Shown here: one piece after another, positions 4,984-60,492 of the stretch
How positions within the stretch are numbered: the stretch's first letter is position 1
Layout: each line of letters opens with the position of its first letter
Source: a virus
Length of the DNA: 64,000 nucleotides
Virus record (IMG/VR): IMGVR_UViG_3300003322_000571
Location: 124,001-188,000 of that record
Strand: one strand, 5' to 3'
Notes under the pieces: generated by a model
Databases searched by the model: none
Told to the model about the DNA's origin: nothing
What the model saw: only the letters and a program-made list of their open reading frames with translations
Made by a program: the position numbers and the translations under genes

Positions 4984-5456
4984 TATTTGTCCAAGCCTTC
5001 CAGGCGATGTTGCATCGCCGTAAATGTTGTGATCAGCGAATCGATCAGGCTTTCAGGGCCTCCGCCTTCGCGGACACGGATAGTGTACCGGCACTTGTCC
5101 AGTAGAAACCGAATGTTCTCTTCAACAGTCGATCCGTCTTCAGCCGTCAGACCATCATTCTTGCCAACGACCTTGCACACACATCCGGGACTACCAATAG
5201 GCTTTGTCCAGAAGTTACAGTACGCAAGATGGCCATAGTTTGGCTGAGCTGCTTCCGTTGGATGTGCTTCCCACCACTTCGGTACAGGATCCATCGGACC
5301 TTTGTTAAAGTTCAACTTGCCAGCATACACTGCATCGTTGACGTCAGCAGACATCATCGTTCCAGGGCAGCAAGTAGGTAGTGATCCTTCTGCTCCTCCG
5401 CATACTTTGCAGTGGAGCAAACCGTCATCGCGGTCGTAGTAGGTGTGGGTACTCAA
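4983..5456 (-). CDS. Phage protein with zinc-binding N-terminus
   Basis: 157 residues. Residues 15-32 read HCKVCGGAEGSLPTCCPG, a compact CxxC...CC element that recurs at the N-terminus of many phage proteins and is probably a zinc knuckle. The C-terminal 60 residues are helical. The start lies inside the end of the upstream gene (32-nt overlap). The function is unknown. Confidence 0.85.
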   Translation of the reverse strand: MSTHTYYDRDDGLLHCKVCGGAEGSLPTCCPGTMMSADVNDAVYAGKLNFNKGPMDPVPKWWEAHPTEAAQPNYGHLAYCNFWTKPIGSPGCVCKVVGKNDGLTAEDGSTVEENIRFLLDKCRYTIRVREGGGPESLIDSLITTFTAMQHRLEGLDK

Positions 5457-5691
5457 TTTGAATCCAGTTTAAGAATTTGTTCAATGTTCGCTTGGCAGCT
5501 TCACGTTCAGGGTCAATCCGACGGTGGTACGTATCAAGTTGTTGAAGGTACAGAAGGTCTTGGCGAATACGTTCAACCATGATACGATCGACGAAATTTC
5601 CTCCGTACTTGTCAACAACTTGTTGAGACGTGACGGGATAATCACGATGATCTGTGATCGTTAACGGATTGCTAGGTAAAATTGGTTCCAT
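5425..5691 (-). CDS. Hypothetical helical protein
   Basis: 88 residues, charged and mostly helical, immediately after the MazG gene. No domain is recognised. Confidence 0.75.
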   Translation of the reverse strand: MEPILPSNPLTITDHRDYPVTSQQVVDKYGGNFVDRIMVERIRQDLLYLQQLDTYHRRIDPEREAAKRTLNKFLNWIQIEYPHLLRPR

Positions 5692-5692
5692 C

Positions 5693-6337
5693 TCACCTCC
5701 CTACGTACCGCTCTGTCGACTCGAGCAACGACTCCAGACGTTCAAGTGCAAATTGCAGAAGGCGACGATTACCGAAGTCTGCAATCTTGATCGCAGTTTC
5801 CGTTGCACGGATGTCACGACGAATTTCTTCTCGAACGATCGGATGACCGAACGGAACGCGACTATCACCGTACTTCTCGCTGACGTCCTTTGAGCCATAC
5901 AGGCCAACGTTCGGTTCAAATTCCTTGAAAAACGCCTCACGTGCTTGTTCGTGCGGAATCTGCTTACCTTCGTCGATATCAAGAATGTACTGATACAGAC
6001 CCTGAGCTTCAGGTGACATCTTCTTCGTCACCCACTTGTTCAGTTTCAGCTTGAGCATGTCGCTGAACTGAGCAAATAGTTCTTCAACCGACAATTGTGG
6101 ATGTTCAACCTGCAGAATGTCGATCACTTGGAAGAACATGTCAGCAGATTCTTCAAGGACTGAACCAACGCCTTCCTTATCAGAAGCTACGTAGCCGTGA
6201 TTCTGCAGGACTGCTTCGCACAGTTCGCCTGCTTCCTCAACCATCTTTGTCGTCTTAACGAAGATTGGAAGTTGATTGTTATCACAACGGGAAACAGTAA
6301 CAGCGAGTGCAAGCGTGTTAACAATCTGTTCAGTCAT
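5693..6337 (-). CDS. MazG-like nucleotide pyrophosphohydrolase
   Basis: 214 residues. The all-alpha NTP-PPase metal motif is present: EEAGELCEAV (34-43) and EESAD (62-66), i.e. ExxE...ExxD ligands for Mg. The family hydrolyses NTPs or dNTPs to NMP and PPi; phage members have been linked to alarmone or nucleotide-pool control. The ATG at 6337 with SD AAGAAAG is preferred to the in-frame ATG at 6364, which lies inside the upstream gene. The C-terminal ~100 residues extend beyond a minimal MazG domain. Confidence 0.8.
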   Translation of the reverse strand: MTEQIVNTLALAVTVSRCDNNQLPIFVKTTKMVEEAGELCEAVLQNHGYVASDKEGVGSVLEESADMFFQVIDILQVEHPQLSVEELFAQFSDMLKLKLNKWVTKKMSPEAQGLYQYILDIDEGKQIPHEQAREAFFKEFEPNVGLYGSKDVSEKYGDSRVPFGHPIVREEIRRDIRATETAIKIADFGNRRLLQFALERLESLLESTERYVGR

Positions 6338-13605: not shown

Positions 13606-14364
13606 ATGGACATCTCTCCGAAGCTGCACAAGATGAACATCAACCACCGGTCGGCGGCTGCTGCTGTGCAGCACACGCGAGATTGGATCGAGGGGATTGT
13701 GGACGGCGACATCGTCGTCAACAACAAGGTGATCGTCGATCCCGCACCTCCGAGCCGTGATGTGATCGCCAACGCGGTCTACTTCGTCAACCATCTGCTC
13801 AGCACCGAGCTGACCACGCAACAACTGGTCGAGCACTACGAGTTGCACAAGACGGAGTCGCGGGCGAAAGCCGATTCGTGGGCGATCACGTTCGCACAGG
13901 CGATCGTCGAGCAACTGGTCAAGGCTGACTGTGTGCTGCTCGCTGGTTCGACCGCTGATCTGATCAAGATGGCGTGGGAACGCGCAACGAAGTCGATCAC
14001 GTGCGCCCGCTATCCCGAAGTGTTCTCGAAGGCAGAAGTCGCTTCGACCACTGGCGGTGAAGTCAAGGCTGTTTCCGACATGGTCGATGTCAAGGTCGAA
14101 GTGAAGGCCGATGGCAAGATCAAGAAGGGCGGCAAGGAGCAGCTGGCGATCGCATTGTACCAGAAGTACGTCGCGTCGCTCAACGGTGCACCGTACGTCA
14201 ACCAGGACTTCATCAAGATCCTCGTCGAAGAGGCTGGCATGACCAAGCCGGGTGCAACGACGTACAACTACAACATGAAGAAGAAGTTCGGTGGTCAGAT
14301 CGAGAAGCGTGCGGACGCTGAGCCGGTTCGCATGCTGGCAGCGCCCAAGAAGAAGGCTGCTTGA
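13606..14364 (+). CDS. GAxTYY-module protein 1 (252 aa)
   Basis: A member of a four-gene family here (with 15552, 18899, 21971) sharing a ~50-residue C-terminal module: a helix, then EEAGMTKPGATTYNYNMKKK at ~205-224. The long N-terminal part is specific to this copy, with a helical half and a basic, Lys-rich linker. Codon use is GC-rich. I infer a DNA-binding or regulatory role because one paralogue carries a winged helix; this is not proven. Confidence 0.82.
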   Translation: MDISPKLHKMNINHRSAAAAVQHTRDWIEGIVDGDIVVNNKVIVDPAPPSRDVIANAVYFVNHLLSTELTTQQLVEHYELHKTESRAKADSWAITFAQAIVEQLVKADCVLLAGSTADLIKMAWERATKSITCARYPEVFSKAEVASTTGGEVKAVSDMVDVKVEVKADGKIKKGGKEQLAIALYQKYVASLNGAPYVNQDFIKILVEEAGMTKPGATTYNYNMKKKFGGQIEKRADAEPVRMLAAPKKKAA

Positions 14365-14368
14365 CCTG

Positions 14369-14397
14369 TTGATCAAAATGGTTAGTGAGGGGATGAT
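14369..14397 (+). promoter_or_regulatory. Sigma70-type promoter inside a 10-bp dyad
   Basis: -35 TTGATC, 17-nt spacer, -10 GATGAT. Perfect arms TGGTTAGTGA (14379-14388) and TCACTAACCA (14402-14411) flank the -10. Confidence 0.75.
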
Positions 14398-14433
14398 CTC
14401 TTCACTAACCAACTACATCTGTTAGGAGAGGTG

Positions 14434-14895
14434 ATGAAATATGTCGTCAGTGTCGCGATCAGCGACCAGATTCCTCATGTCAAGACCACTCTGGCGCGGT
14501 CGGGGATCATCGATGTTTCGTGCGAGCACCAGACCGCTAAGCGTGCAATGGATGATTTCGCCGCAGTGATGACGGCGATTGCTGATCATCCGGGTTCTGG
14601 TCCGTACTGGCAGGTCAACCCGATGCAAGTACTGGACGCGATCCTCAGTCCTCCGCAGGAGAACGAGCAATCGAACGTCAAGATCGAGTTCGAGGCACGT
14701 GACGCCAACGGTGGTCCCACGTTCTCGCTGATCACCGTGGCGCTGAAAAGCGAAGAAGGCGAGACGGCGAACACGACCAATTCGTGCATGCATGCGATGG
14801 CATGCAAGATGCTCGACGTGCTCGAAACCATGATCCACGGTGGTGACCTCCCGACTGAGGAAGCTTCGATCCCTGAAGGTGAAACGATTCACTGA
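14434..14895 (+). CDS. Hypothetical protein
   Basis: 153 residues with SD AGGAGAGG; a GTG directly before the ATG is an alternative start. GC-rich codon use like its upstream neighbour. The C-terminus is acidic. No family is recognised. Confidence 0.82.
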   Translation: MKYVVSVAISDQIPHVKTTLARSGIIDVSCEHQTAKRAMDDFAAVMTAIADHPGSGPYWQVNPMQVLDAILSPPQENEQSNVKIEFEARDANGGPTFSLITVALKSEEGETANTTNSCMHAMACKMLDVLETMIHGGDLPTEEASIPEGETIH

Positions 14896-14897
14896 TC

Positions 14898-15179
14898 ATG
14901 ATCAAGCTGACCGTTAAGGCAGACTACAAACACCGCCCTCCGGCGGTGTTTTTCGTTACCGGTTACATCGACATGGTGTTCGTGAGCTGGAAGATCCTGT
15001 GGGCACTTACACGGGCTGCTTCCAAGCAGAAAGCGAACATTGTACAGGAAGGTGAGAGCGAAAGCTACGGAGTGCACACACTTCACTTCGTACAAAAGGA
15101 CGGGAACAATTCAACTCCGTTCATTAGCATTGATTTCGAAGAAGTTGACGAGGTCCCCGACGGTTGGGAGCCCACGTAG
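14898..15179 (+). CDS. Small hypothetical protein containing a terminator-like hairpin
   Basis: 93 residues, starting 2 nt after the previous stop without a clear SD. A strong hairpin with a T-run (14928-14953) lies inside its first 20 codons, so the true start could be the ATG at 14973. Acidic C-terminus (FEEVDEVPDGWEP). Confidence 0.55.
   Translation: MIKLTVKADYKHRPPAVFFVTGYIDMVFVSWKILWALTRAASKQKANIVQEGESESYGVHTLHFVQKDGNNSTPFISIDFEEVDEVPDGWEPT
14928..14953 (+). terminator. Terminator-like hairpin inside a coding region
   Basis: Ten-bp stem AAACACCGCC/GGCGGTGTTT with loop CTCC followed by TT. It lies 33 nt after the gene ending at 14895, overlapping the start of the next ORF. Confidence 0.6.
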
Positions 15180-15195
15180 CACACAGCGCCCAGAC

Positions 15196-15226
15196 AAAAG
15201 CCCACCATTGTGTGGGCTTTTTCTTT
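15196..15226 (+). terminator. Rho-independent terminator
   Basis: Stem AAAGCCCAC/GTGGGCTTT with a T-rich tail, just after the gene ending at 15179. Confidence 0.85.
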
Positions 15227-15387
15227 TGCAGCTATACAAAAATGCTCCATTGGTTTGAATGCTTGCTCTGAAGACAAACGAGCAGAGACGGATGTCGTTT
15301 CTGCATGATAATGAAATTGTGTGAGCGCAGGAGTCGCTCGGGTCTGTGCGCGATAAGCGTGTCGTTAAGACGGTTTAAAGTGCTCTG

Positions 15388-15416
15388 TTGTCAAGACTCG
15401 ACAGATGACTGATAGT
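15388..15416 (+). promoter_or_regulatory. Sigma70-type promoter, distal of a tandem pair
   Basis: -35 TTGTCA, 17-nt spacer, -10 GATAGT. Confidence 0.65.
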
Positions 15417-15471
15417 TCACTCACTGGTTCGGAAACGCAACCGCAGGGACACAAGCAAGAAACTGCTCCTG

Positions 15472-15500
15472 TTGACAAGTTACCCTGAATCAGAGATAGT
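15472..15500 (+). promoter_or_regulatory. Sigma70-type promoter, proximal of a tandem pair
   Basis: -35 TTGACA, 17-nt spacer, -10 GATAGT. GTTAC occurs as a direct repeat around it. Confidence 0.7.
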
Positions 15501-15551
15501 TACCGCACTGAATCAAGTTTCTCTCAACCACCTGTAACAAGGAGTTTCATC

Positions 15552-16196
15552 ATGACCCAAGCCCAAGCCGCTCTGTCGTCCGCCATCGCCCTCCTGGCCA
15601 ACACCGATGCGTTCCGCCCCGTGGCGGCCGACGCCGGTGAAGTCAAGGCGCTCGTCGGCGACAAGATCGTGTTCCTGACCGCCGACAAGAAGGAATCCGA
15701 CGTCCTGACCGTCGTGATGGTCAAAAAGAAGGTGACCAACACCGTGTCCGACGTGAACGGCGAGAAGATGAGCGTGCCGATGACGCACTTCGGCGCCGAC
15801 GACATCGAGCTGGAAGACGGCACGTTCATCCGCCTGGTCAAGTCGGTGATCCCGCCGAAGCCGGGCAAGAAGGGCCGCGGCCGCGTCGAAGGCGCGCCGA
15901 CCAAGGCTGACATCTGCCGCGGCCTGTTCATCGCCGCCCCGGATGCGCCGAAGGCCGTGATGTGCAAGCTGTTCCAGTCGGAAGCCGGCTGCACCCGGAT
16001 GGGCGCGAACACGTACTTCCTGTCGATCGCCAAGGCCTACGCGGCCGGCAAGCTGAAGGACCTCGTTCTGGACGAAGGCGTCGTCGCCCTCGTGAAGAAG
16101 GCGATCGAGGCGGCGCGCGCCGAAGCGGAAGCCCAGGCGGCGGAAGCGTCGGCCGAGACCACGACCGAGCAGTCGACCGAAGAAGCCTCCGCCTGA
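15552..16196 (+). CDS. GAxTYY-module protein 2 (214 aa), GC-rich
   Basis: SD AAGGAG. The N-terminal ~105 residues are beta-rich, then a basic linker (PPKPGKKGRGR), then the family module ending SEAGCTRMGANTYFLSIAKA at ~142-161, and an Ala/Glu-rich acidic tail. Base composition is far more GC-rich than most genes here, with near-exclusive C or G third positions, suggesting high expression or a different history. Two tandem promoters precede it. Role inferred, not shown. Confidence 0.85.
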   Translation: MTQAQAALSSAIALLANTDAFRPVAADAGEVKALVGDKIVFLTADKKESDVLTVVMVKKKVTNTVSDVNGEKMSVPMTHFGADDIELEDGTFIRLVKSVIPPKPGKKGRGRVEGAPTKADICRGLFIAAPDAPKAVMCKLFQSEAGCTRMGANTYFLSIAKAYAAGKLKDLVLDEGVVALVKKAIEAARAEAEAQAAEASAETTTEQSTEEASA

Positions 16197-16222
16197 TCCT
16201 TGATCGGGTGAAGTGAGAGGGT

Positions 16223-16243
16223 AGGGGGCATAGCCCCCTTCCT
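16223..16243 (+). terminator. Terminator hairpin
   Basis: Stem GGGGGC/GCCCCC with loop ATA and a TTCCTT tail. Confidence 0.7.
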
Positions 16244-16266
16244 TCGTTGTGTGCATCCACCATTCT

Positions 16267-16278
16267 ACTAGTAAACAT
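16267..16278 (+). promoter_or_regulatory. ACTAGTAAACAT element abutting a start codon
   Basis: The same 12-mer occurs at 17314 and 25657. Here it directly precedes the ATG at 16279, leaving no SD. Confidence 0.45.
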
Positions 16279-16629
16279 ATGCCGATCCTCTCTCAAGATG
16301 AACTGGTGCAACTGATGGTTGCGAATCTGGAAGACGGTACGAAGGAGATCCGCTTCGGTGATCATCTCCGTCCCTATGGAATGATGGATGCGCTCGTGAT
16401 TCGTCGTATCCGCACACCCGCAGGAATCCAGTACTGCGTCCGTGAAACGTCGTACCGCGGCGAAGGCAGCGGCATCTACGACCACGGTGCCGTCGAGATT
16501 GCGAAGTGGGCACGCCGGATCGCTGAACGGTACATGAAACCGCATCAGTCTGTTGTTGTTCAAAAGGTTATCGCTGAAGCTCGTGGCCTCAATGAGCCGA
16601 GCTTCTACGTGACCGAATGCAACACCTGA
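16279..16629 (+). CDS. Hypothetical protein without an evident SD
   Basis: 116 residues. The ATG at 16279 is immediately preceded by ACTAGTAAACAT. The N-terminus (MPILSQDELVQLMVANLEDG) matches the style of neighbouring genes. No family is recognised. Confidence 0.75.
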   Translation: MPILSQDELVQLMVANLEDGTKEIRFGDHLRPYGMMDALVIRRIRTPAGIQYCVRETSYRGEGSGIYDHGAVEIAKWARRIAERYMKPHQSVVVQKVIAEARGLNEPSFYVTECNT

Positions 16630-16895
16630 TCTTCTGCCACGACCGCCAGTACGGCGGTCTCGGTATCCAGTTCGTGATCACCCCGAACGATGTGTTCGAG
16701 GCGACAGGCGAGCTAGTTGCCCACACAGCCCTCCTCCCGGAGGGCTTTCGTCCGTCTCAGTCGTCGAGATGGAAGTACGTGCCCCCGTATGGTACAGCAC
16801 CTGAGTACGGAGTTCAACAGGGCGTGATCGAACTGATCGCTGCTGGAGTCAAATACTCCGAGGCCCTCGATCAATATGTCAACGGGACAACATGA
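16617..16895 (+). CDS. Hypothetical protein overlapping its neighbour
   Basis: 92 residues, overlapping the previous gene by 13 nt. A terminator-like hairpin (16727-16748) sits inside the frame, where it encodes LLPEGF. Coding looks plausible, but the expression level may be set by that hairpin. Confidence 0.65.
   Translation: MQHLIFCHDRQYGGLGIQFVITPNDVFEATGELVAHTALLPEGFRPSQSSRWKYVPPYGTAPEYGVQQGVIELIAAGVKYSEALDQYVNGTT
16727..16748 (+). terminator. Terminator-like hairpin inside a coding region
   Basis: Stem AGCCCTCC/GGAGGGCT with loop TCCC followed by TT, about 100 nt into the 16617 ORF. Confidence 0.45.
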
Positions 16896-17002
16896 CTGCT
16901 AAACAAGCACTTGAGCGAGCTCGAATGGCTCGTGCTCGGTCGTACTACGTTGCACTGATGAAACAACTTGGTGTGCGCCAGTTGACGTTGTTCCTTGTTT
17001 GA
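16892..17002 (+). CDS. 36-residue basic peptide, translationally coupled
   Basis: The ATG overlaps the previous TGA (ATGA). The sequence starts MTAKQALERARMARARSYY and is helical and Arg-rich. Too short to assign; the overlap is the main evidence. Confidence 0.5.
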   Translation: MTAKQALERARMARARSYYVALMKQLGVRQLTLFLV

Positions 17003-17034
17003 GGGTCTGGGTAAAAATACTCAAAAGTGACCCG

Positions 17035-17063
17035 TTGTTAAGTCACCTAGTTTTACATATAGT
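17035..17063 (+). promoter_or_regulatory. Sigma70-type promoter
   Basis: -35 TTGTTA, 17-nt spacer, -10 TATAGT. A GAGGAA/TTCCTC hairpin lies in the leader of the gene at 17113. Confidence 0.7.
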
Positions 17064-17112
17064 TGACTTCAACAACTGAGGAAATGTTCCTCGCAACGAA
17101 AGGAGAGAGCAA

Positions 17113-17298
17113 ATGCGTCATCCCGCACAGGGCAAACCGAATCGTTCTGAAGAAGGACGTGCCCAACGTGCCGCTCGCCACGCCCGCGCTGGCCGCCTGC
17201 AAGAGGTGCGCAACCGCGAGCTGGAGGCCGCTGACGACGCATTCTCCGATGGTGATCACGAGGCCGATGTCTGGGCCGATGAGCACGAGCTCGCGTGA
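17113..17298 (+). CDS. Small Arg-rich/acidic bipartite protein
   Basis: 61 residues after SD AAGGAGAGAG. The N-terminal half is Arg/Ala-rich and basic; the C-terminal half is strongly acidic (DDAFSDGDHEADVW). No family is recognised. Confidence 0.8.
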   Translation: MRHPAQGKPNRSEEGRAQRAARHARAGRLQEVRNRELEAADDAFSDGDHEADVWADEHELA

Positions 17299-17710
17299 TC
17301 GTTTCTAGTGACCACTAGTAAACATTAAGCCGGGCTTCGTGAGGTGGCCCACCGATGCAGTAATCTTTTGTACGCTCAACATCAGATGACATACGGCATG
17401 AAGGTGCTCAAGTAGCACCTGGGAGGCGCGCCGGCCGGACATACCGCGCCGTGGCCGGCGCGCAACTCCCAAACCTGCACAGCGGCAAGCATTTCGCCCC
17501 GCAACCGACAACCAGTGAGTCACGACATAGTGCGTTACGCATAGGGCTTTTGACATGTGCCCGCCCCGAAGTCTAACCGATGGCCATAGGGTCGCTCGCC
17601 GGGATGAAAGCGAGCACACACTAACCAAGTGGTAACCGAGTGCGCTGGCGACCGGAATTGCTGGCGCATTCAACATTTCCAGACTTCGAATTCAGACTAG
17701 AAAGGTCTAC
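17299..17710 (+). ncRNA. Structured gene-free segment, candidate ncRNA
   Basis: 412 nt without a gene but full of strong inverted repeats. AGGTGCT/AGCACCT hairpin; a long hairpin at about 17423-17472 whose arms GCGCGCCGGCC/GGCCGGCGCGC are enclosed by GGGAG/CTCCC; TGCGT/ACGCA; GCTCGC/GCGAGC. GC content is high. No promoter of the usual form was found inside it. It may be a structured RNA or a long regulatory leader of the gene at 17711. Confidence 0.45.
17314..17325 (+). repeat. ACTAGTAAACAT element
   Basis: Preceded by CTAGTG so that CTAGTG-AC-CACTAG forms a palindrome. Confidence 0.4.
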
Positions 17711-17893
17711 ATGTCCCGCAATTCCAAGAACGCCAAGCGCCACATCGCCGAGAAGGCCGCCTCCACCCAGCGCGTGAAGGGCGACAAGGGCCCCACCAAG
17801 ACGACGCCGAAGCACGGCAAGAAGAAGGCGTGGTGGCAGCTGTTCCCGTCGTACGAGGCGTACATCAAGGGCGCCAAGAAGCAGAAGGACTAA
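17711..17893 (+). CDS. Small Lys-rich basic protein, GC-rich
   Basis: 60 residues, very basic over the first 45 (KNAKRHIAEKAASTQRVKG..KHGKKKAWW). Codon use is GC-rich like the GAxTYY-module genes, suggesting strong expression. Possibly nucleic-acid binding. SD AGAAAGG; its own terminator follows. Confidence 0.8.
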   Translation: MSRNSKNAKRHIAEKAASTQRVKGDKGPTKTTPKHGKKKAWWQLFPSYEAYIKGAKKQKD

Positions 17894-17923
17894 GCGGTTC
17901 TCCGCACTGTCGCTGCAGACACT

Positions 17924-17950
17924 AAAGGGCTCAACAGAGCCCTTTTGTTT
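17924..17950 (+). terminator. Rho-independent terminator
   Basis: Stem AAAGGGCTC/GAGCCCTTT, loop AACA, tail TGTTTTG. Confidence 0.85.
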
Positions 17951-17968
17951 TGTCCGCACTATAAGACA

Positions 17969-18046
17969 GTGAGGCGCTCTCGCCGTCCATCCCGCGTTAG
18001 CTTCGAATCATGTGGTGATTATATTCGAAAGAGGGTAAAAGTCAAC
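17969..18046 (+). repeat. Three-copy intergenic repeat, unit C
   Basis: The most diverged copy: GCGCTCTC, GTCCATCCC, TTCGAAT, CATGTGGTG, TTATATTCG, then AAAGTCAAC. See unit A at 11405. Confidence 0.65.
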
Positions 18047-18079
18047 GAGAGAATTTGCCGGGCGGCGGGGGCGCCCCCG

Positions 18080-18108
18080 TTGTCAACTTACTCTGGTTGT
18101 GTGATAGT
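18080..18108 (+). promoter_or_regulatory. Sigma70-type promoter
   Basis: -35 TTGTCA, 17-nt spacer, -10 GATAGT, with GTCAAC/GTTGAC arms around it and a perfect CGGGGGCGCCCCCG palindrome just upstream. Confidence 0.7.
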
Positions 18109-18139
18109 TGACTCATCAGTTAACAACCACGAGAACAAA

Positions 18140-18445
18140 ATGACGTTCGAACAAGAGCTGTCGGTCATCGAACAACTGTTCGGTGTCAAGATCGAAATCC
18201 AAGCCGCGCCGGGTTCGCCTGTGTGGTACACCTTCAGTGGCCGACAGTTGACGGTCGAATGCATCGAGGGCATCATCACGCAGAACAGCGGGGTGCTTGA
18301 GTGGCAAGACCCGTTGTCGTGGCATTGCAACAACAACGACAATGTCGCGTACCTGGTGGTCAAGCTGACCGACACCGATGAAGATGTCGTGTATGATCGG
18401 CTGTTCGCGTTCGACTTGACCGACAACGAATTCCACATTGTCTGA
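18140..18445 (+). CDS. Acidic hypothetical protein
   Basis: 101 residues, starting at the ATG in AACAAAATGACG. Acidic, with an N-terminal helix and a strand-rich middle. No family is recognised. Confidence 0.82.
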   Translation: MTFEQELSVIEQLFGVKIEIQAAPGSPVWYTFSGRQLTVECIEGIITQNSGVLEWQDPLSWHCNNNDNVAYLVVKLTDTDEDVVYDRLFAFDLTDNEFHIV

Positions 18446-18466
18446 CAACTGACCGGGGAGGTCAAC

Positions 18467-18736
18467 ATGTTCGCCTTCGCCTATGCGGTGTACAGCCGCA
18501 ATCAAGCCCAGCCTCCGCACATTGTTGTCGGTGGCAGTGGCATGGAGTGCGTCAACCGCATCAAGCCGTACATCGAACGCCTGCTCGAGGATGAGCACAA
18601 GGAACGTTTCGGTGGCAATGCAGTCAAGACCGCATACGAAGACCTCAAGCAGGTCGGCACGGTCGCTGAGCTGGAGGTGTTTCTCAGCCGGTGGCTGCCG
18701 TATCGCGGCATGCTGGTTTCCGACCAGATCAAGTAA
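18467..18736 (+). CDS. Hypothetical protein
   Basis: 89 residues with SD GGGGAGG, 21 nt after the previous gene. Mostly helical (IKPYIERLLEDEHKERFGG). No family is recognised. Confidence 0.82.
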   Translation: MFAFAYAVYSRNQAQPPHIVVGGSGMECVNRIKPYIERLLEDEHKERFGGNAVKTAYEDLKQVGTVAELEVFLSRWLPYRGMLVSDQIK

Positions 18737-18747
18737 CGAGTGCCCTG

Positions 18748-18776
18748 TTGATCCCACGTGGGATCTTTGGGATAGT
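18748..18776 (+). promoter_or_regulatory. Sigma70-type promoter with a 16-bp palindrome, distal of a tandem pair
   Basis: -35 TTGATC, 17-nt spacer, -10 GATAGT. The palindrome GATCCCACGTGGGATC (18750-18765) starts in the -35 and fills most of the spacer, a good operator position. A CGAGCGC/GCGCTTG leader hairpin follows. Confidence 0.75.
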
Positions 18777-18838
18777 ACACACATCGCGAGCGCAAACAAC
18801 AAAGCGCTTGCGAGACGGACAGAATCAAAACTGACCCG

Positions 18839-18866
18839 TTGTCCAGAAACGAAATTGTGGGATAGT
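18839..18866 (+). promoter_or_regulatory. Sigma70-type promoter, proximal of a tandem pair
   Basis: -35 TTGTCC, 16-nt spacer, -10 GATAGT, with TGGGAT/ATCCCA arms around the -10. Confidence 0.65.
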
Positions 18867-18898
18867 AGACACATCCCAACGCAACCAGGAGAGATGAA

Positions 18899-19537
18899 AT
18901 GACCACGCTGATCCAAACCCTGTTCGCTGCCAACGAAGGCCGCACCGTCGAAGCGAACAACGACCAGAACAAGGGCATCTTCAAGGTCGCCAAGCTGGCC
19001 GACAAGATCGGCACGATGAAGAACGGCGACAAGGCCGAGTACGTCGTGCTGACGAACGAGAACGACGAAGCGGTCGTCATCATGCTCCACCCGAACGTCG
19101 CCAAGAGCCTGTTCGAGAAGGGCGAAGACGCCAAGACCGGCTACAAGATGGTGCCCGTCGAGACGACCGACGAGCAGACCGTCACGACCGCTGAAGTCGG
19201 TGGTGCCCCCGCGGAAGTGATCCTGGCGACGTCGGAAGGCGAAGTGCTCGCCGCTGTCCCCGCCGGCACGACCGAAGAAGCGTCCGCTGAAACGGCTCCG
19301 GAAGACAACGGTGCCGCCGAAGCGAGCACGGAAACGACCGAAGCTGCCGCGGAAGAGCCGAAGGAGCCGTCGAAGAAGGAGCTGACGATCGCTCTGGTGC
19401 ACGCCGGCTGGGATGCCAAGCTCGCGCGCAAGGACATCATCGCCAAGATGATCGCCGAAATCGGCATGAGCGGCCCCTGCGCGAACACGTACTACCAGAA
19501 CGTGAAGTCGGGCACCTGGGGCGGCCGTAAGGGCTAA
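18899..19537 (+). CDS. GAxTYY-module protein 3 (212 aa), GC-rich
   Basis: SD AGGAGAG. The N-terminal ~85 residues are alpha/beta, followed by a long Ala/Glu/Thr-rich acidic linker (~90-155) and the C-terminal module with AEIGMSGPCANTYYQNVKSG near the end. It shares tandem promoters and GC-rich codon use with the 15552 gene. Probably a regulator or nucleoid-type protein by context; unproven. Confidence 0.85.
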   Translation: MTTLIQTLFAANEGRTVEANNDQNKGIFKVAKLADKIGTMKNGDKAEYVVLTNENDEAVVIMLHPNVAKSLFEKGEDAKTGYKMVPVETTDEQTVTTAEVGGAPAEVILATSEGEVLAAVPAGTTEEASAETAPEDNGAAEASTETTEAAAEEPKEPSKKELTIALVHAGWDAKLARKDIIAKMIAEIGMSGPCANTYYQNVKSGTWGGRKG

Positions 19538-19546
19538 TCCCCACGC

Positions 19547-19570
19547 CAAGAGGGCTTCGGCCCTCTTGCT
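19547..19570 (+). terminator. Terminator hairpin
   Basis: Nine-bp stem CAAGAGGGC/GCCCTCTTG with a TTCG tetraloop. Its right arm merges with the next -35 box. Confidence 0.8.
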
Positions 19571-19594
19571 TTGACAAGCGTATTGGTATACAGT
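19566..19594 (+). promoter_or_regulatory. Sigma70-type promoter in a dyad
   Basis: -35 TTGCTT, 17-nt spacer, -10 TACAGT, with AAGCGTA (19576-19582) and TACGCTT (19594-19600) arms. Confidence 0.55.
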
Positions 19595-19626
19595 ACGCTT
19601 ATCCAAGCAACTCTCAAGGACATATC

Positions 19627-19836
19627 ATGCCTTTGACGTGGTACATCGTTTTCTCGCTGCTGATGTCGTTCTGCGTGCTGTTCGCTTCGAAGCCGGGGAC
19701 GACTGGCATCCTGATCAAGCTCGCCGCCATCGTCCACATTGCGCTGTCGCTGTGGACTCTCCACCAAAACCACGACCTCGTCAAGCAAGCGCATCTCTTC
19801 GCTGAGAAGCTGCCGAGCGTCACGATCGAGAAGTGA
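19627..19836 (+). CDS. Small membrane protein, two TM segments
   Basis: 69 residues. Hydrophobic helices at about 4-21 and 28-47, then a short charged tail. SD AAGGA. Confidence 0.8.
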   Translation: MPLTWYIVFSLLMSFCVLFASKPGTTGILIKLAAIVHIALSLWTLHQNHDLVKQAHLFAEKLPSVTIEK

Positions 19837-19843
19837 GGGCAAC

Positions 19844-19999
19844 ATGCTCCCCGTCAAGATCAAACAGCCGCTGGAACGGCTCGAGAAGATGGTGCTCGTC
19901 AGCATCTACGAGGGCAAGCGTCTGCTCGGCTGGCGCTTGGTCAAAGCGCGCAAGACCGGCAACGAGTATCGCATTCCTCACGACTCACGTTGCAAGTGA
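19844..19999 (+). CDS. Small basic protein (51 aa)
   Basis: SD GTGAGGG directly upstream, 7 nt after the previous stop. Lys/Arg-rich, with LVSIYEGKRLLGWRLVKARK. No family is recognised. Confidence 0.7.
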   Translation: MLPVKIKQPLERLEKMVLVSIYEGKRLLGWRLVKARKTGNEYRIPHDSRCK

Positions 20000-20003
20000 T
20001 ACC

Positions 20004-20744
20004 ATGAACAACATCAAAGACATGCTCCAGTTCGACGGCGTGGCCGCTGCTGAGGATATGACCGGGCGCAGTGCTCGTTTCGACGAGAATACCGGTTTGT
20101 TGGCGCTCGCTCTGTCGGTAGCGCACAACGATGCGCTGTCCAAGGCTCTGGCGTCCGAGGACGACACGCAGTACAACAACAAGCTGACCAACTACCAGCG
20201 GATCATCACCAGCATGGGGTTCGAGCTCGCGCTGCGCACTCCGTTCGTCGGTCAGGCGTGGGGTGATGAGCCTGTACCGGATGAAGCGCAGTACATCTAC
20301 GCGCACCGTGCCGGCATGCTGCTGATCTTCGATACGTACGGAGGCGACAGCGTCAACTCCGCCAAGGTGTACTACGCGCACCGTCCTCACCAGCTCTCGA
20401 GCTGTCATTACAGCAGCGGTGGCTGGTACTCTGCAGAAGAATGGAAGGATTCACGTTATCCTTCTGACATGTGGTGGTTTGGCGATCACGATGCACGGGT
20501 CGCTCTCCGTCACACGATTCGGCGGCTGCACGATAGTGGGCAATTCCTGACTCCGTGGCCGAAGCCGCATAGCACGCGCAGCTCTCCGTCGGTCTGGATG
20601 TGCCATTACATGGACCACAAGAAGTTGGACAAGTTGGGCAGTCCGGAGTACAAGGAGGCGATCCGCAATGCGGAGGCCAGGCTCCATCAACTCCCGGATT
20701 GGGTCAAGGAGATGATTTCCCCGGTCCTTCCCGTCCAGGACTGA
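20004..20744 (+). CDS. Conserved phage protein (246 aa)
   Basis: The start MNNIKDMLQFDGVAAAEDMTG is typical of a phage family I have seen as hypothetical. Starts 4 nt after the previous stop. Contains many Trp, Tyr and His in the second half (SSGGWYSAEEWKD, DMWWFGDHD). No catalytic motif is recognised. Confidence 0.82.
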   Translation: MNNIKDMLQFDGVAAAEDMTGRSARFDENTGLLALALSVAHNDALSKALASEDDTQYNNKLTNYQRIITSMGFELALRTPFVGQAWGDEPVPDEAQYIYAHRAGMLLIFDTYGGDSVNSAKVYYAHRPHQLSSCHYSSGGWYSAEEWKDSRYPSDMWWFGDHDARVALRHTIRRLHDSGQFLTPWPKPHSTRSSPSVWMCHYMDHKKLDKLGSPEYKEAIRNAEARLHQLPDWVKEMISPVLPVQD

Positions 20745-20803
20745 CTCGACGACGAGGACGAAGATCAAGGGTGATATTACCCAGTTGATTTCCACAATGA
20801 GAC

Positions 20804-20825
20804 AGGGGAGCGTTAACGCTCCCCT
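20804..20825 (+). terminator. 22-bp perfect palindrome, probable terminator
   Basis: AGGGGAGCGTT followed directly by AACGCTCCCCT, then TCCTATT. The T-run is weak. Confidence 0.6.
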
Positions 20826-20850
20826 TCCTATTACAACTGCAGAGGTCCTT

Positions 20851-21129
20851 GTGGAAGCAACACTTGACGAGAAGTTCGTCGGCACCGTGAGGTCGCCGAT
20901 TGAATCATTCTGGCAGGGTTGTACGCTGAAGAAGGCCGCTGATGCGGAGCACTTCTTTGACGTGCCGAATGTCGATGCGATAGGCTATTGCCTTGACCAC
21001 AACCACTTTTCCAGTCTGTCCCCAGAAGCAAAGCGGCTGATCCACCGTGTGATCGATATCTACGGCCGCCATGCTGTCTGCGATTATCTGGCTGACCACA
21101 TCAAGCTGGTCAAGCAGAAAACACACTGA
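20851..21129 (+). CDS. Hypothetical protein, GTG start
   Basis: 92 residues if started at the GTG preceded by AGAGG; in-frame starts further up (ATG 20797) would run through the palindrome and lack an SD. Mostly helical. Convergent with the SprT-like gene, overlapping it by 20 nt. Confidence 0.7.
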   Translation: MEATLDEKFVGTVRSPIESFWQGCTLKKAADAEHFFDVPNVDAIGYCLDHNHFSSLSPEAKRLIHRVIDIYGRHAVCDYLADHIKLVKQKTH

Positions 21130-21595
21130 TGTCCTGTTTGCACTTGTTGCACTGATACGCCTTGCCCTTGCGGGCTTGCGTATGCTGATAGTACGACAGT
21201 TGGTGCGACATACAGCCACAGTTCCACAGGTACGTCTTGACGGTTTTCGCCGTGTCGTACCTGTGCGTGATCTCAGCCTTCGCTTCGAATAGCTTCATCA
21301 TCGACTGCCATTCCCGTCCATGCTGGAAAGGGACGTTGCCGTTGATGTCTTGCACGATCAAGTGCGCCAGCTCATGCGGAACGCTGTTCGCGATGTACGC
21401 GTCAGTGTTGTCCCGCAGGTAAATCATGTTCAAATCGATCGTGCGCGTAGCGTATTCGGCGTAGCCTGCGCTCGCACCACGGATACGATACACGATATTC
21501 GGACGTTCGACAACGATGCGGAGCTCCCGCTCAGCGATCGCGATCAGGTTGTCAACGCGGGCATTGACCCGCTTTTGTAGTTCCAGCTTAGTCAC
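21110..21595 (-). CDS. SprT-like zinc metalloprotease
   Basis: 161 residues on the strand opposite to its neighbours. HELAH (74-78) gives two zinc ligands and the catalytic Glu; HGREW (92-96) supplies the third His region, as in SprT/Spartan proteins. The C-terminus has a four-Cys zinc ribbon (WNCGC ... YQCNKC). The GTG at 21595 with SD GGGAG and MTKLELQ-type start is chosen over an in-frame ATG at 21658 that lacks an SD. The cellular family cuts DNA-protein crosslinks; the phage substrate is unknown. Confidence 0.82.
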   Translation of the reverse strand: MTKLELQKRVNARVDNLIAIAERELRIVVERPNIVYRIRGASAGYAEYATRTIDLNMIYLRDNTDAYIANSVPHELAHLIVQDINGNVPFQHGREWQSMMKLFEAKAEITHRYDTAKTVKTYLWNCGCMSHQLSYYQHTQARKGKAYQCNKCKQDISVFSA

Positions 21596-21970
21596 ATTTA
21601 ACTCCCTGGCGAACTGCCCCATTATTGTTATTGAGCAGGACGCAATGTAACGATGCAAATACGTGGTTTACGATGTGGTCTGTAAAAATAATTTGGTGTA
21701 TAACAACCAGTTCAATCGATGACGATGTCGCTAGCGAACGTTATTGACCAATGAAATAAAAGTTGCCGAAAGGGTGAAACAGCGTTGATCAAACCGCGTG
21801 GTTCAAGTAGCTGCCTCGTTGATCTTTACCCTAACTAGTCAGATAGTGTGCTTCATGCGATAGGGATTCGTTGTTGAGAAGCAGCTACAACTGCTAATCA
21901 ACATTCAAACGAGTTAGCGATCGCATCAGTCCTCTTCTTTTGTGTTCGTCAATCTTTGAAAGGAATCATC
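21596..21970. other. Divergent intergenic region
   Basis: 375 nt between the SprT-like gene and the rightward gene at 21971. Contains one good rightward promoter (21819). A leftward promoter for the protease was not clearly seen. Confidence 0.5.
21819..21847 (+). promoter_or_regulatory. Sigma70-type promoter
   Basis: -35 TTGATC, 17-nt spacer containing CTAGTC, -10 GATAGT. The leader to the gene at 21971 is about 115 nt. Confidence 0.65.
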
Positions 21971-22426
21971 ATGAGCAACGTCACCGAAAAGGGCCTCATC
22001 GTTCTGAAGGCCGCTTCCAAGCACAACACGCGCGAGAAGATCGCCCGCCGCCTCGGCCAAAGCGTCGCCCAAGTCAACGGCGCCCTGACCGGTCTCAAGC
22101 GCAACGGCCTGATCGAGATCGATGCCGAAGGCGTGATCACCGTGACCCCCGACGCCGCTCCCTACCTGAGCAAGCGCGCCGGTGGCACCGCTGAACGCGC
22201 CACCCGCACCAACACGAAGATGGCCGCTGCGCGTCGCCTGTTCGACAAGTACGCGTCGAAGGAAGGTCGTGGCGGTCTGATCGCTCGCTTCATGAAGGAG
22301 ATCGGCCTGACCGAGAAGGGCGCGTCGACCTACTTCCAGACGATCCGTGTGCAGGCCGGTGTGCCGGCGGGCGCTTTCCAGCGTGCTCCGCGCAAGCCTT
22401 CGACCGTTTCGCGCAAGACGTCGTGA
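21971..22426 (+). CDS. GAxTYY-module protein 4 with winged helix-turn-helix (151 aa)
   Basis: The ATG after SD AAAGGA is chosen over one 15 nt upstream. Residues ~8-60 read like a winged helix: TREKIARRLGQSVAQVNGAL as helix-turn-helix, then LIEIDAEGVITVTP as the wing. The C-terminal module has MKEIGLTEKGASTYFQTIRV. A DNA-binding regulator is the best guess, and it gives the functional hint for the whole four-gene family. Confidence 0.82.
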   Translation: MSNVTEKGLIVLKAASKHNTREKIARRLGQSVAQVNGALTGLKRNGLIEIDAEGVITVTPDAAPYLSKRAGGTAERATRTNTKMAAARRLFDKYASKEGRGGLIARFMKEIGLTEKGASTYFQTIRVQAGVPAGAFQRAPRKPSTVSRKTS

Positions 22427-25075: not shown

Positions 25076-25327
25076 ATGAGTGGATATCTTGGTAACCCGG
25101 ACGCAGAGTCCGAACACGCACTGATCCTCGCTGAGAACGGGATCGATGCGGCACGTGCAATGTTGGCAGGTCCTGTTCTGGAAGACTGTCAGAACTGCGA
25201 TGAGCCGATCGATCCGAAGCGAGTCGCTGCGCTCCGTGCAAACGGCATGAAGTGCATGTACTGCATTATTTGCCAATCGAAGTTTGACGCTGCACCAAAG
25301 ATCAAAATGCTTGACCGCATCCTGTAA
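25076..25327 (+). CDS. TraR/DksA-type zinc-finger protein
   Basis: 83 residues, the size of phage TraR. Four Cys (C38, C41, C60, C63; a fifth, C66, follows) flank the CxNCDEPIDPKR..AL turn typical of the TraR/DksA finger. TraR binds the RNA polymerase secondary channel and mimics ppGpp/DksA, shifting transcription between promoter classes. No SD is visible, and the promoter position predicts a leaderless mRNA. Confidence 0.85.
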   Translation: MSGYLGNPDAESEHALILAENGIDAARAMLAGPVLEDCQNCDEPIDPKRVAALRANGMKCMYCIICQSKFDAAPKIKMLDRIL

Positions 25328-60170: not shown

Positions 60171-60242
60171 GGGGGATTAGTATAGCTGGGAAAACACCGC
60201 CCTTGCAAGGCGAAGTCACCGGTTCGACCCCGGTATCCTCCA
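60171..60242 (+). tRNA. tRNA-Ala (anticodon TGC)
   Basis: Full cloverleaf: acceptor GGGGGAT pairs with ATCCTCC (one G-T), anticodon loop CTTGCAA with TGC, T arm CCGG-TTCGACC-CCGG. The outer anticodon-stem pair is a C-A mismatch. CCA is not encoded. Confidence 0.88.
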
Positions 60243-60392
60243 CAGTATCTCAAGAAGGCCTGTTAGTACGTGCTCTAAGCGTCTTCTTTCACTGACTCGC
60301 ATAGAATGCAGAGAAACATCACGTAAATGTCTCTGTAGACCACTAGCGAAAGTCGTTTAGTCGATGGTTACGGTGCAAGCCCGGAACAAAAT

Positions 60393-60466
60393 CGGAGTAT
60401 AGCGCAGCCTGGTAGCGCAACTGCTTTGGGAGCAGTGGGTCGGGAGTTCGAATCTCTCTACTCCGA
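60393..60466 (+). tRNA. tRNA-Pro (anticodon TGG)
   Basis: Acceptor CGGAGTA/TACTCCG, D arm with AGCCTGGTAGC, anticodon stem CTGCT/AGCAG around TTTGGGA (TGG), T arm GGGAG-TTCGAAT-CTCTC. CCA is not encoded. Confidence 0.93.
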
Positions 60467-60492
60467 CATAATATAACACAGCGAGATTGTAC

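Follow-up and report, generated by a model that had tools for sequence, protein, structure and literature searches.

Four genes with a common module

The window analysed here is a 64,000-nucleotide stretch of DNA, positions 124001-188000 of the 350,089-bp virus record IMGVR_UViG_3300003322_000571 (window coordinates are used throughout), and the element under study is a module of about 50 residues common to the products of four of its plus-strand genes. The four open reading frames (ORFs) have their start codons at the positions given, with good or plausible ribosome-binding sites. The genes and their modules, the latter with the E-value (E) against a profile of other phages' modules, are:

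13606..14364, plus strand: gene 1, 252 amino acids (aa); an N-terminal part of ~170 aa, the module and an 18-aa basic tail
14122..14307, plus strand: module of gene 1, KKGGKEQLAIAL...EEAGMTKPGATTYNYNMKKKFGG; E 3.4e-15
15552..16196, plus strand: gene 2, 214 aa; an N-terminal part without assigned fold, the module and an Ala/Glu-rich tail of ~45 residues
15891..16058, plus strand: module of gene 2, the most divergent of the four (SEAGCTRMGANTYFLSIAK); E 7.2e-11
18899..19537, plus strand: gene 3, 212 aa; an N-terminal domain of ~85 aa, an acidic Glu/Ala/Thr linker and the module at the extreme end
19361..19534, plus strand: module of gene 3; E 4.1e-18
21971..22426, plus strand: gene 4, 151 aa, isoelectric point (pI) 11; a winged helix (residues ~18-58), a linker, the module and a basic tail
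22205..22375, plus strand: module of gene 4; E 1e-15

The modules of genes 1 to 4 read EAGMTKPGATTYNYNMK, EAGCTRMGANTYFLSIAK, EIGMSGPCANTYYQNVK and EIGLTEKGASTYFQTIR, respectively. The profile built only from the modules of other phages, whose members had originally been found with profiles that had included window sequences, singles out exactly four ORFs among the 1,076 of the window (E 7e-11 to 4e-18, the next match being at 0.35), the same four for which an earlier note on this DNA had proposed a common C-terminal module. Pairwise BLASTP relates gene 3 to gene 4 (E 5e-6) and gene 1 to gene 3 (E 1e-4). The C-terminal position holds strictly for gene 3; in genes 1, 2 and 4 another 15-45 residues come after the module as a tail, and the term is only approximate there. 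The rest of the 350,089-bp record contains no further convincing copy. One weak match (E 0.0096; G000:C1:95768-95887, within L097 = G000:C1:95100-96500) reads MTRGEFIKWAEANTGMGKNYASAYYAKHNPKS inside a Lys/Ala/Glu-rich frame of 290 residues; it may be a very distant relative of the module and is not counted as a fifth copy.

In an alignment of 34 modules, A-x-T-Y is invariant and preceded by G-[LM]-[TS]-x-x-G, the Lys at the start of helix 1 is nearly invariant, and the start of helix 2 is basic, often RK. The net charge averages +4.0, with 96% of 57 modules positively charged. Pfam and NCBIfam do not contain the module, and neither gave a convincing helix-turn-helix (HTH) family match; PDB sequence searches with it detected no similarity to known HTH domains, and a nucleotide search of phage records gave no match. 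The RNA-polymerase-associated protein Gp33 and HU/IHF were discarded as relatives, their PDB sequence matches having E 0.19 and 0.33. As far as the libraries searched show, the module is an undescribed domain.

Predicted fold, partner proteins and distribution

AlphaFold2 run on the 34-module alignment predicts the gene-3 module as a 58-residue three-helix bundle (mean predicted local distance difference test score, pLDDT, 90.1; predicted template modelling score 0.72), with helices at residues 5-18, 23-34 and 38-50 and a three-residue turn (35-37) between helices 2 and 3. The gene-4 model has the same bundle after the winged helix (helices to residue 94, then 100-111 and 115-129; pLDDT of the block ~84-97). 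The structure models cover the modules of genes 3 and 4, and for these two the predicted fold is one and the same, not the unrelated C-terminal folds that the earlier note had named as grounds for abandoning its proposal. As modelled, helices 2 and 3 with their three-residue turn are arranged in the HTH manner. The 50 PDB fold matches listed, though weak, are of HTH or homeodomain type, for example DNA-binding domains of transposases, homeodomains and bacterial HTH regulators. As modelled, the module resembles homeodomain-like, tri-helical HTH proteins such as Mos1, the I-beta domain of MuA, DeoR and HOXB13 in its three helices and HTH arrangement (template modelling scores, TM, ~0.5-0.57), and differs from them in having no sequence similarity. 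Among predicted viral proteins, Foldseek matches uncharacterised phage proteins with a probability near 1, including one of Agrobacterium phage Atu_ph07.

The winged helix proposed for one N-terminus is found in gene 4, with weak but consistent Pfam matches (best E 1.6e-4, below the curated cut-offs) and a model comprising helices 18-28 and 32-44 plus two strands, whose fold matches are of the DtxR/IdeR type. No second recognisable DNA-binding domain besides the module was detected in genes 1-3. The N-terminal part of gene 1 is akin to L055 (37% over 54 aa, E 7e-6) and also to L012, gene 2 has a counterpart at L055 1510-2100 (46% over 61 aa, E 1e-7), and the N-terminal domain of gene 3 is common to L011 and L065 (39-41%, E 4e-15 and 1e-14).

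The 55 distinct module-bearing ORFs collected have non-module parts that form seven small clusters and many singletons. The position of the module varies (N-terminal, C-terminal or internal); it is mostly terminal and often lies behind a long flexible linker. The clusters include the gene-1 type, the gene-3 type, an HTH-like domain found in three proteins of Aeromonas phage Ahp1_CNU-2021 (PF01527 E 0.007 for one of them, below the cut-off) and a domain of ~120 residues often followed by one or two modules (two in L013 and L032). Single cases carry Lys/Ala/Pro-rich tails, and a Mu gpF-like head protein (Phage_Mu_F; L020 3065-5161) has the module mid-protein; the C-terminal part of the latter is zincin-like by a sub-threshold Pfam match. 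L014 and L023 encode nearly bare modules, the stand-alone version of L014 measuring 81-95 aa. Between two bare-module genes of L014, at 5280-5900, the sequence is non-coding and unusual, containing C-rich runs that recur (cccccgaccccc) and repeats of the ccaattgtggtttggt type.

SprT-like proteases bear the module in five phages, each with a PF10263 match; one of these fusions has a further match, to HC2, a histone-H1-like family (E 1.4e-7, below the curated cut-off). The window has its own SprT-like gene, 312 bp from gene 4:

21110..21658, minus strand: SprT-like metallopeptidase gene with HELAH and C-terminal zinc-ribbon cysteines, without module; PF10263 E 1.3e-12

Its product is akin to the five SprT proteins that bear the module: four give E 4e-26 to 8e-7, the remaining one 0.004.

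In seven further records of large phages, including two named isolates, the genome holds 4-7 modules. Six IMG/VR records of 75-292 kb contain 7, 5, 4, 1, 5 and 6 copies, Vibrio phage Bakedbeans has five, and Ahp1_CNU-2021 has four and a weak fifth. A profile scan gave divergent or weak copies in Xanthomonas phage XacN1 and Atu_ph07, and no module in phiKZ, KVP40, BcepSauron, GAP32, Ea35-70, phage G or T4; the plasmids searched contained none. Three bacterial genome assemblies carry the module. One contig among them (27,687 bp) looks viral. In each of the two others a DUF2779 gene is directly followed by a gene for a protein that ends in the module. The pairs (L068 150-3156 and L067 198-3159), a possible defence-related cassette, consist of a DUF2779 protein with a weak Cas4-like match and the module-ended protein, and in Litorilituus (L068) a gene for a WYL-domain regulator lies downstream.

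In a tree of the modules, built on a short 50-residue alignment and with modest support, genes 1, 2 and 3 each pair with a counterpart from IMG/VR phage 3300050150_000084 (support 0.99, 0.81 and 0.92). N-terminal similarity backs the pairings of genes 1 and 3; in gene 2 the alignment is limited to the module plus a short preceding stretch. Phage 3300050150_000084 carries a gene-2-like, a gene-1-like, a SprT-plus-module and a gene-3-like gene in that order within ~5 kb, much as in the window. Given the similar gene order and the separate counterparts, the set was probably assembled before the two phages diverged. The set is thus a conserved cluster and not a recent local expansion: local tandem duplication was rejected as the origin of the four modules, which fall into separate clades, those of genes 1-3 together with counterparts from a single other phage, and the 'expanded family' of the earlier note does not stand in that sense.

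Promoter-like sites and codon usage

The tandem promoters suggested for two genes correspond to pairs of promoter-like sites, recognised by consensus match only, before genes 2 and 3:

15388..15500, plus strand: two promoter-like sites before gene 2 (15388, TTGTCA-17-GATAGT; 15472, TTGACA-17-GATAGT)
18748..18776, plus strand: first promoter-like site of gene 3 (TTGATC-17-GATAGT)
18839..18866, plus strand: second promoter-like site of gene 3 (TTGTCC-16-GATAGT)

Gene 4 has a single promoter-like site at 21819. Sigma-70-like promoter sites are frequent between 13000 and 23000 (16 found vs 3.9 expected), and the window has 18 plus-strand occurrences and one minus-strand occurrence of the motif TTGNNN-N15-19-(G/T)ATAGT. 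The version TTGNNN-17-GATAGT, often preceded by TGTGG and almost confined to the plus strand, recurs at 25311, 31671, 31919, 32647, 36295 and other positions.

The perfect 16-bp palindrome that had been noticed in one promoter, GATCCCACGTGGGATC, is present at 18750-18765, overlapping the first gene-3 site in its -35 hexamer and spacer; it occurs once in 350 kb, with no copies at the other module genes. Perfect palindromes of 16 bp number three in the window where ~1 is expected, so that the gene-3 palindrome alone is weak evidence and any link between it and the module putative. With a single copy of a kind that is not rare, it was rejected as the target of the module. TGGGAT half-sites were likewise rejected as specific to gene 3, belonging to a recurrent promoter-like motif, tgtGGGATAGT, found at several other genes.

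The G+C content of the region holding the four genes is ~52-58% vs 45-50% elsewhere, and many short plus-strand genes lie there. The GC-rich codons ascribed to the four genes are borne out by a G+C content at third codon positions (GC3) of 0.78-0.90, the 93rd-99th percentile of a rough gene set; GC3 is also raised across the whole region. By its position and promoter type the region resembles an early region, and codon bias and promoter-like sites are compatible with strong expression of the four genes. The abundance that the earlier note proposed for the four proteins would follow from these two features only and is not upheld as stated. For gene 4, with its pI of 11, winged helix and module, the label 'abundant DNA-binding protein' seems plausible; for the other three, two of them acidic, it would be conjectural. 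Two tRNA genes (Ala-TGC and Pro-TGG) lie on the plus strand of the window at 60171-60467.

A candidate DNA tether and its alternatives

On balance, the module is probably a small, basic, three-helix HTH-like tether for nucleic acids, reused to put different activities on DNA. The predicted basic HTH-like fold, the position at a terminus behind a linker, the multiple copies and the DNA-related partners (winged helix, HTH domains, SprT-like proteases, the HC2 repeat, Lys/Ala/Pro-rich tails) count in favour of such a tether. Large phages would join it, copy by copy, to a range of N-terminal and at times C-terminal parts and would so hold several proteins on DNA: in the window the winged-helix protein of gene 4 and the products of genes 1-3, elsewhere SprT-like proteases. 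The HTH would consist of helix 2, a short turn and helix 3 (GAxTYxxNxK), the last lying against the DNA, and reuse on unrelated partners favours binding of low sequence specificity. Several observations weigh against a tether. Foldseek returned nothing significant from PDB (best E 0.54; TM within the range given above), and homeodomains are over-represented there, so that any small three-helix bundle may match them; the gene-2 and gene-3 products have an acidic overall pI (5.6 and 4.7), and the N-terminal part of the latter is strongly acidic; and the Mu gpF-like head protein does not obviously need DNA tethering.

Some of these facts would also suit a docking tag, a common C-terminus binding one host or phage protein (e.g. 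RNA polymerase, or part of the replication or packaging apparatus) and gathering activities at one machine: the partners are functionally unrelated and include the head morphogenesis protein, the module, like docking tags, is mostly terminal and often preceded by a long flexible linker, there are at least four copies per genome, and genes 2 and 3 encode acidic proteins. We consider such a tag possible but doubtful, since the fold matches are DNA-binding HTH proteins, the module is consistently basic with partners that are often DNA-related, and the stand-alone module of L014 would be superfluous for a pure tag. It is unlikely that the four proteins are transcription regulators in the narrow sense, that is, sequence-specific factors with gene 3 autoregulated through the palindrome over its promoter. 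The winged helix of gene 4 and the placement of that palindrome, unique in 350 kb, would fit; however, genes 1-3 show no recognisable DNA-binding domain besides the module, perfect palindromes of this length are not rare, the one at gene 3 has no copy at the other module genes, and the occurrence of the module on proteases and a head protein elsewhere points to a general adaptor and not to a mark of transcription regulators. The description of the genes as four regulators is accordingly not upheld. That the module sits on so many unrelated partners, be it at the N-terminus, at the C-terminus or within the protein, could be taken to reflect a mobile, selfish or neutral domain spreading by recombination among phage genes without common function; this is very improbable, as the specific motif is strongly conserved across divergent phages and the orthologous types are long-lived, both of which imply selection.

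The reuse of a small common domain by phage paralogues is known in principle, the domain described here being new as far as the libraries show. T4 MotB and MotB.1 are paralogous early proteins with different N-termini and a common C-terminal domain, of which there is sometimes more than one copy; DNA binding by MotB is tight and non-specific, and the MotB C-terminus is predicted to adopt an OB (oligonucleotide/oligosaccharide-binding) fold (PMC7827196). The window module is alike in being a small domain reused behind different N-termini, but it is predicted to be HTH-like; MotB and MotB.1 were rejected as relatives, their C-termini being unrelated by eye and the profile finding no module in the T4 genome. 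Seven of the 34 modules match phrog_18416 (PHROGs v4, unknown function; best E 4.3e-5), the window gene-3 module not among them, so that parts of the family seem to be in that phage catalogue already; that entry has no function or domain description, and the multi-copy, multi-partner use is not recorded there. SPRTN is described as a DNA-dependent, DNA-binding protease (PMC5127644); the five module-bearing SprT-like phage proteins share PF10263 with it, the module lying outside PF10263 and being absent from the window SprT. A survey of jumbo phages reports 1-3 SprT copies in some of them, read as proteases aimed at host proteins, with no mention of the module in the passages searched, and ~35 zinc ribbons in Bacillus phage G, viewed as a lineage-specific DNA-binding expansion (PMC7824862). 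In both cases a small, putatively DNA-binding domain is repeated many times within a single giant phage; the zinc ribbon is a different domain, and phage G has no module by the profile scan.

We tentatively suggest, as a possibility only, that the module is an undescribed 'address' domain by which otherwise unrelated proteins, such as proteases, regulators and head proteins, are assigned to one common DNA or compartment, and that some bacteria have also taken it into a DUF2779-linked, possibly defence-related pair. If true, one HTH-like fold would be widely used by large phages for a whole set of proteins. Most genes of giant phages have no assigned function, and a module recurring 4-7 times per genome offers a handle on dozens of unannotated proteins and makes it testable whether one common tether puts many activities on DNA in these phages. 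Fusions to SprT recur, which suggests that phages have a route by which proteins bound to DNA are proteolysed; such a route could play a part in taking over the host or in counter-defence.

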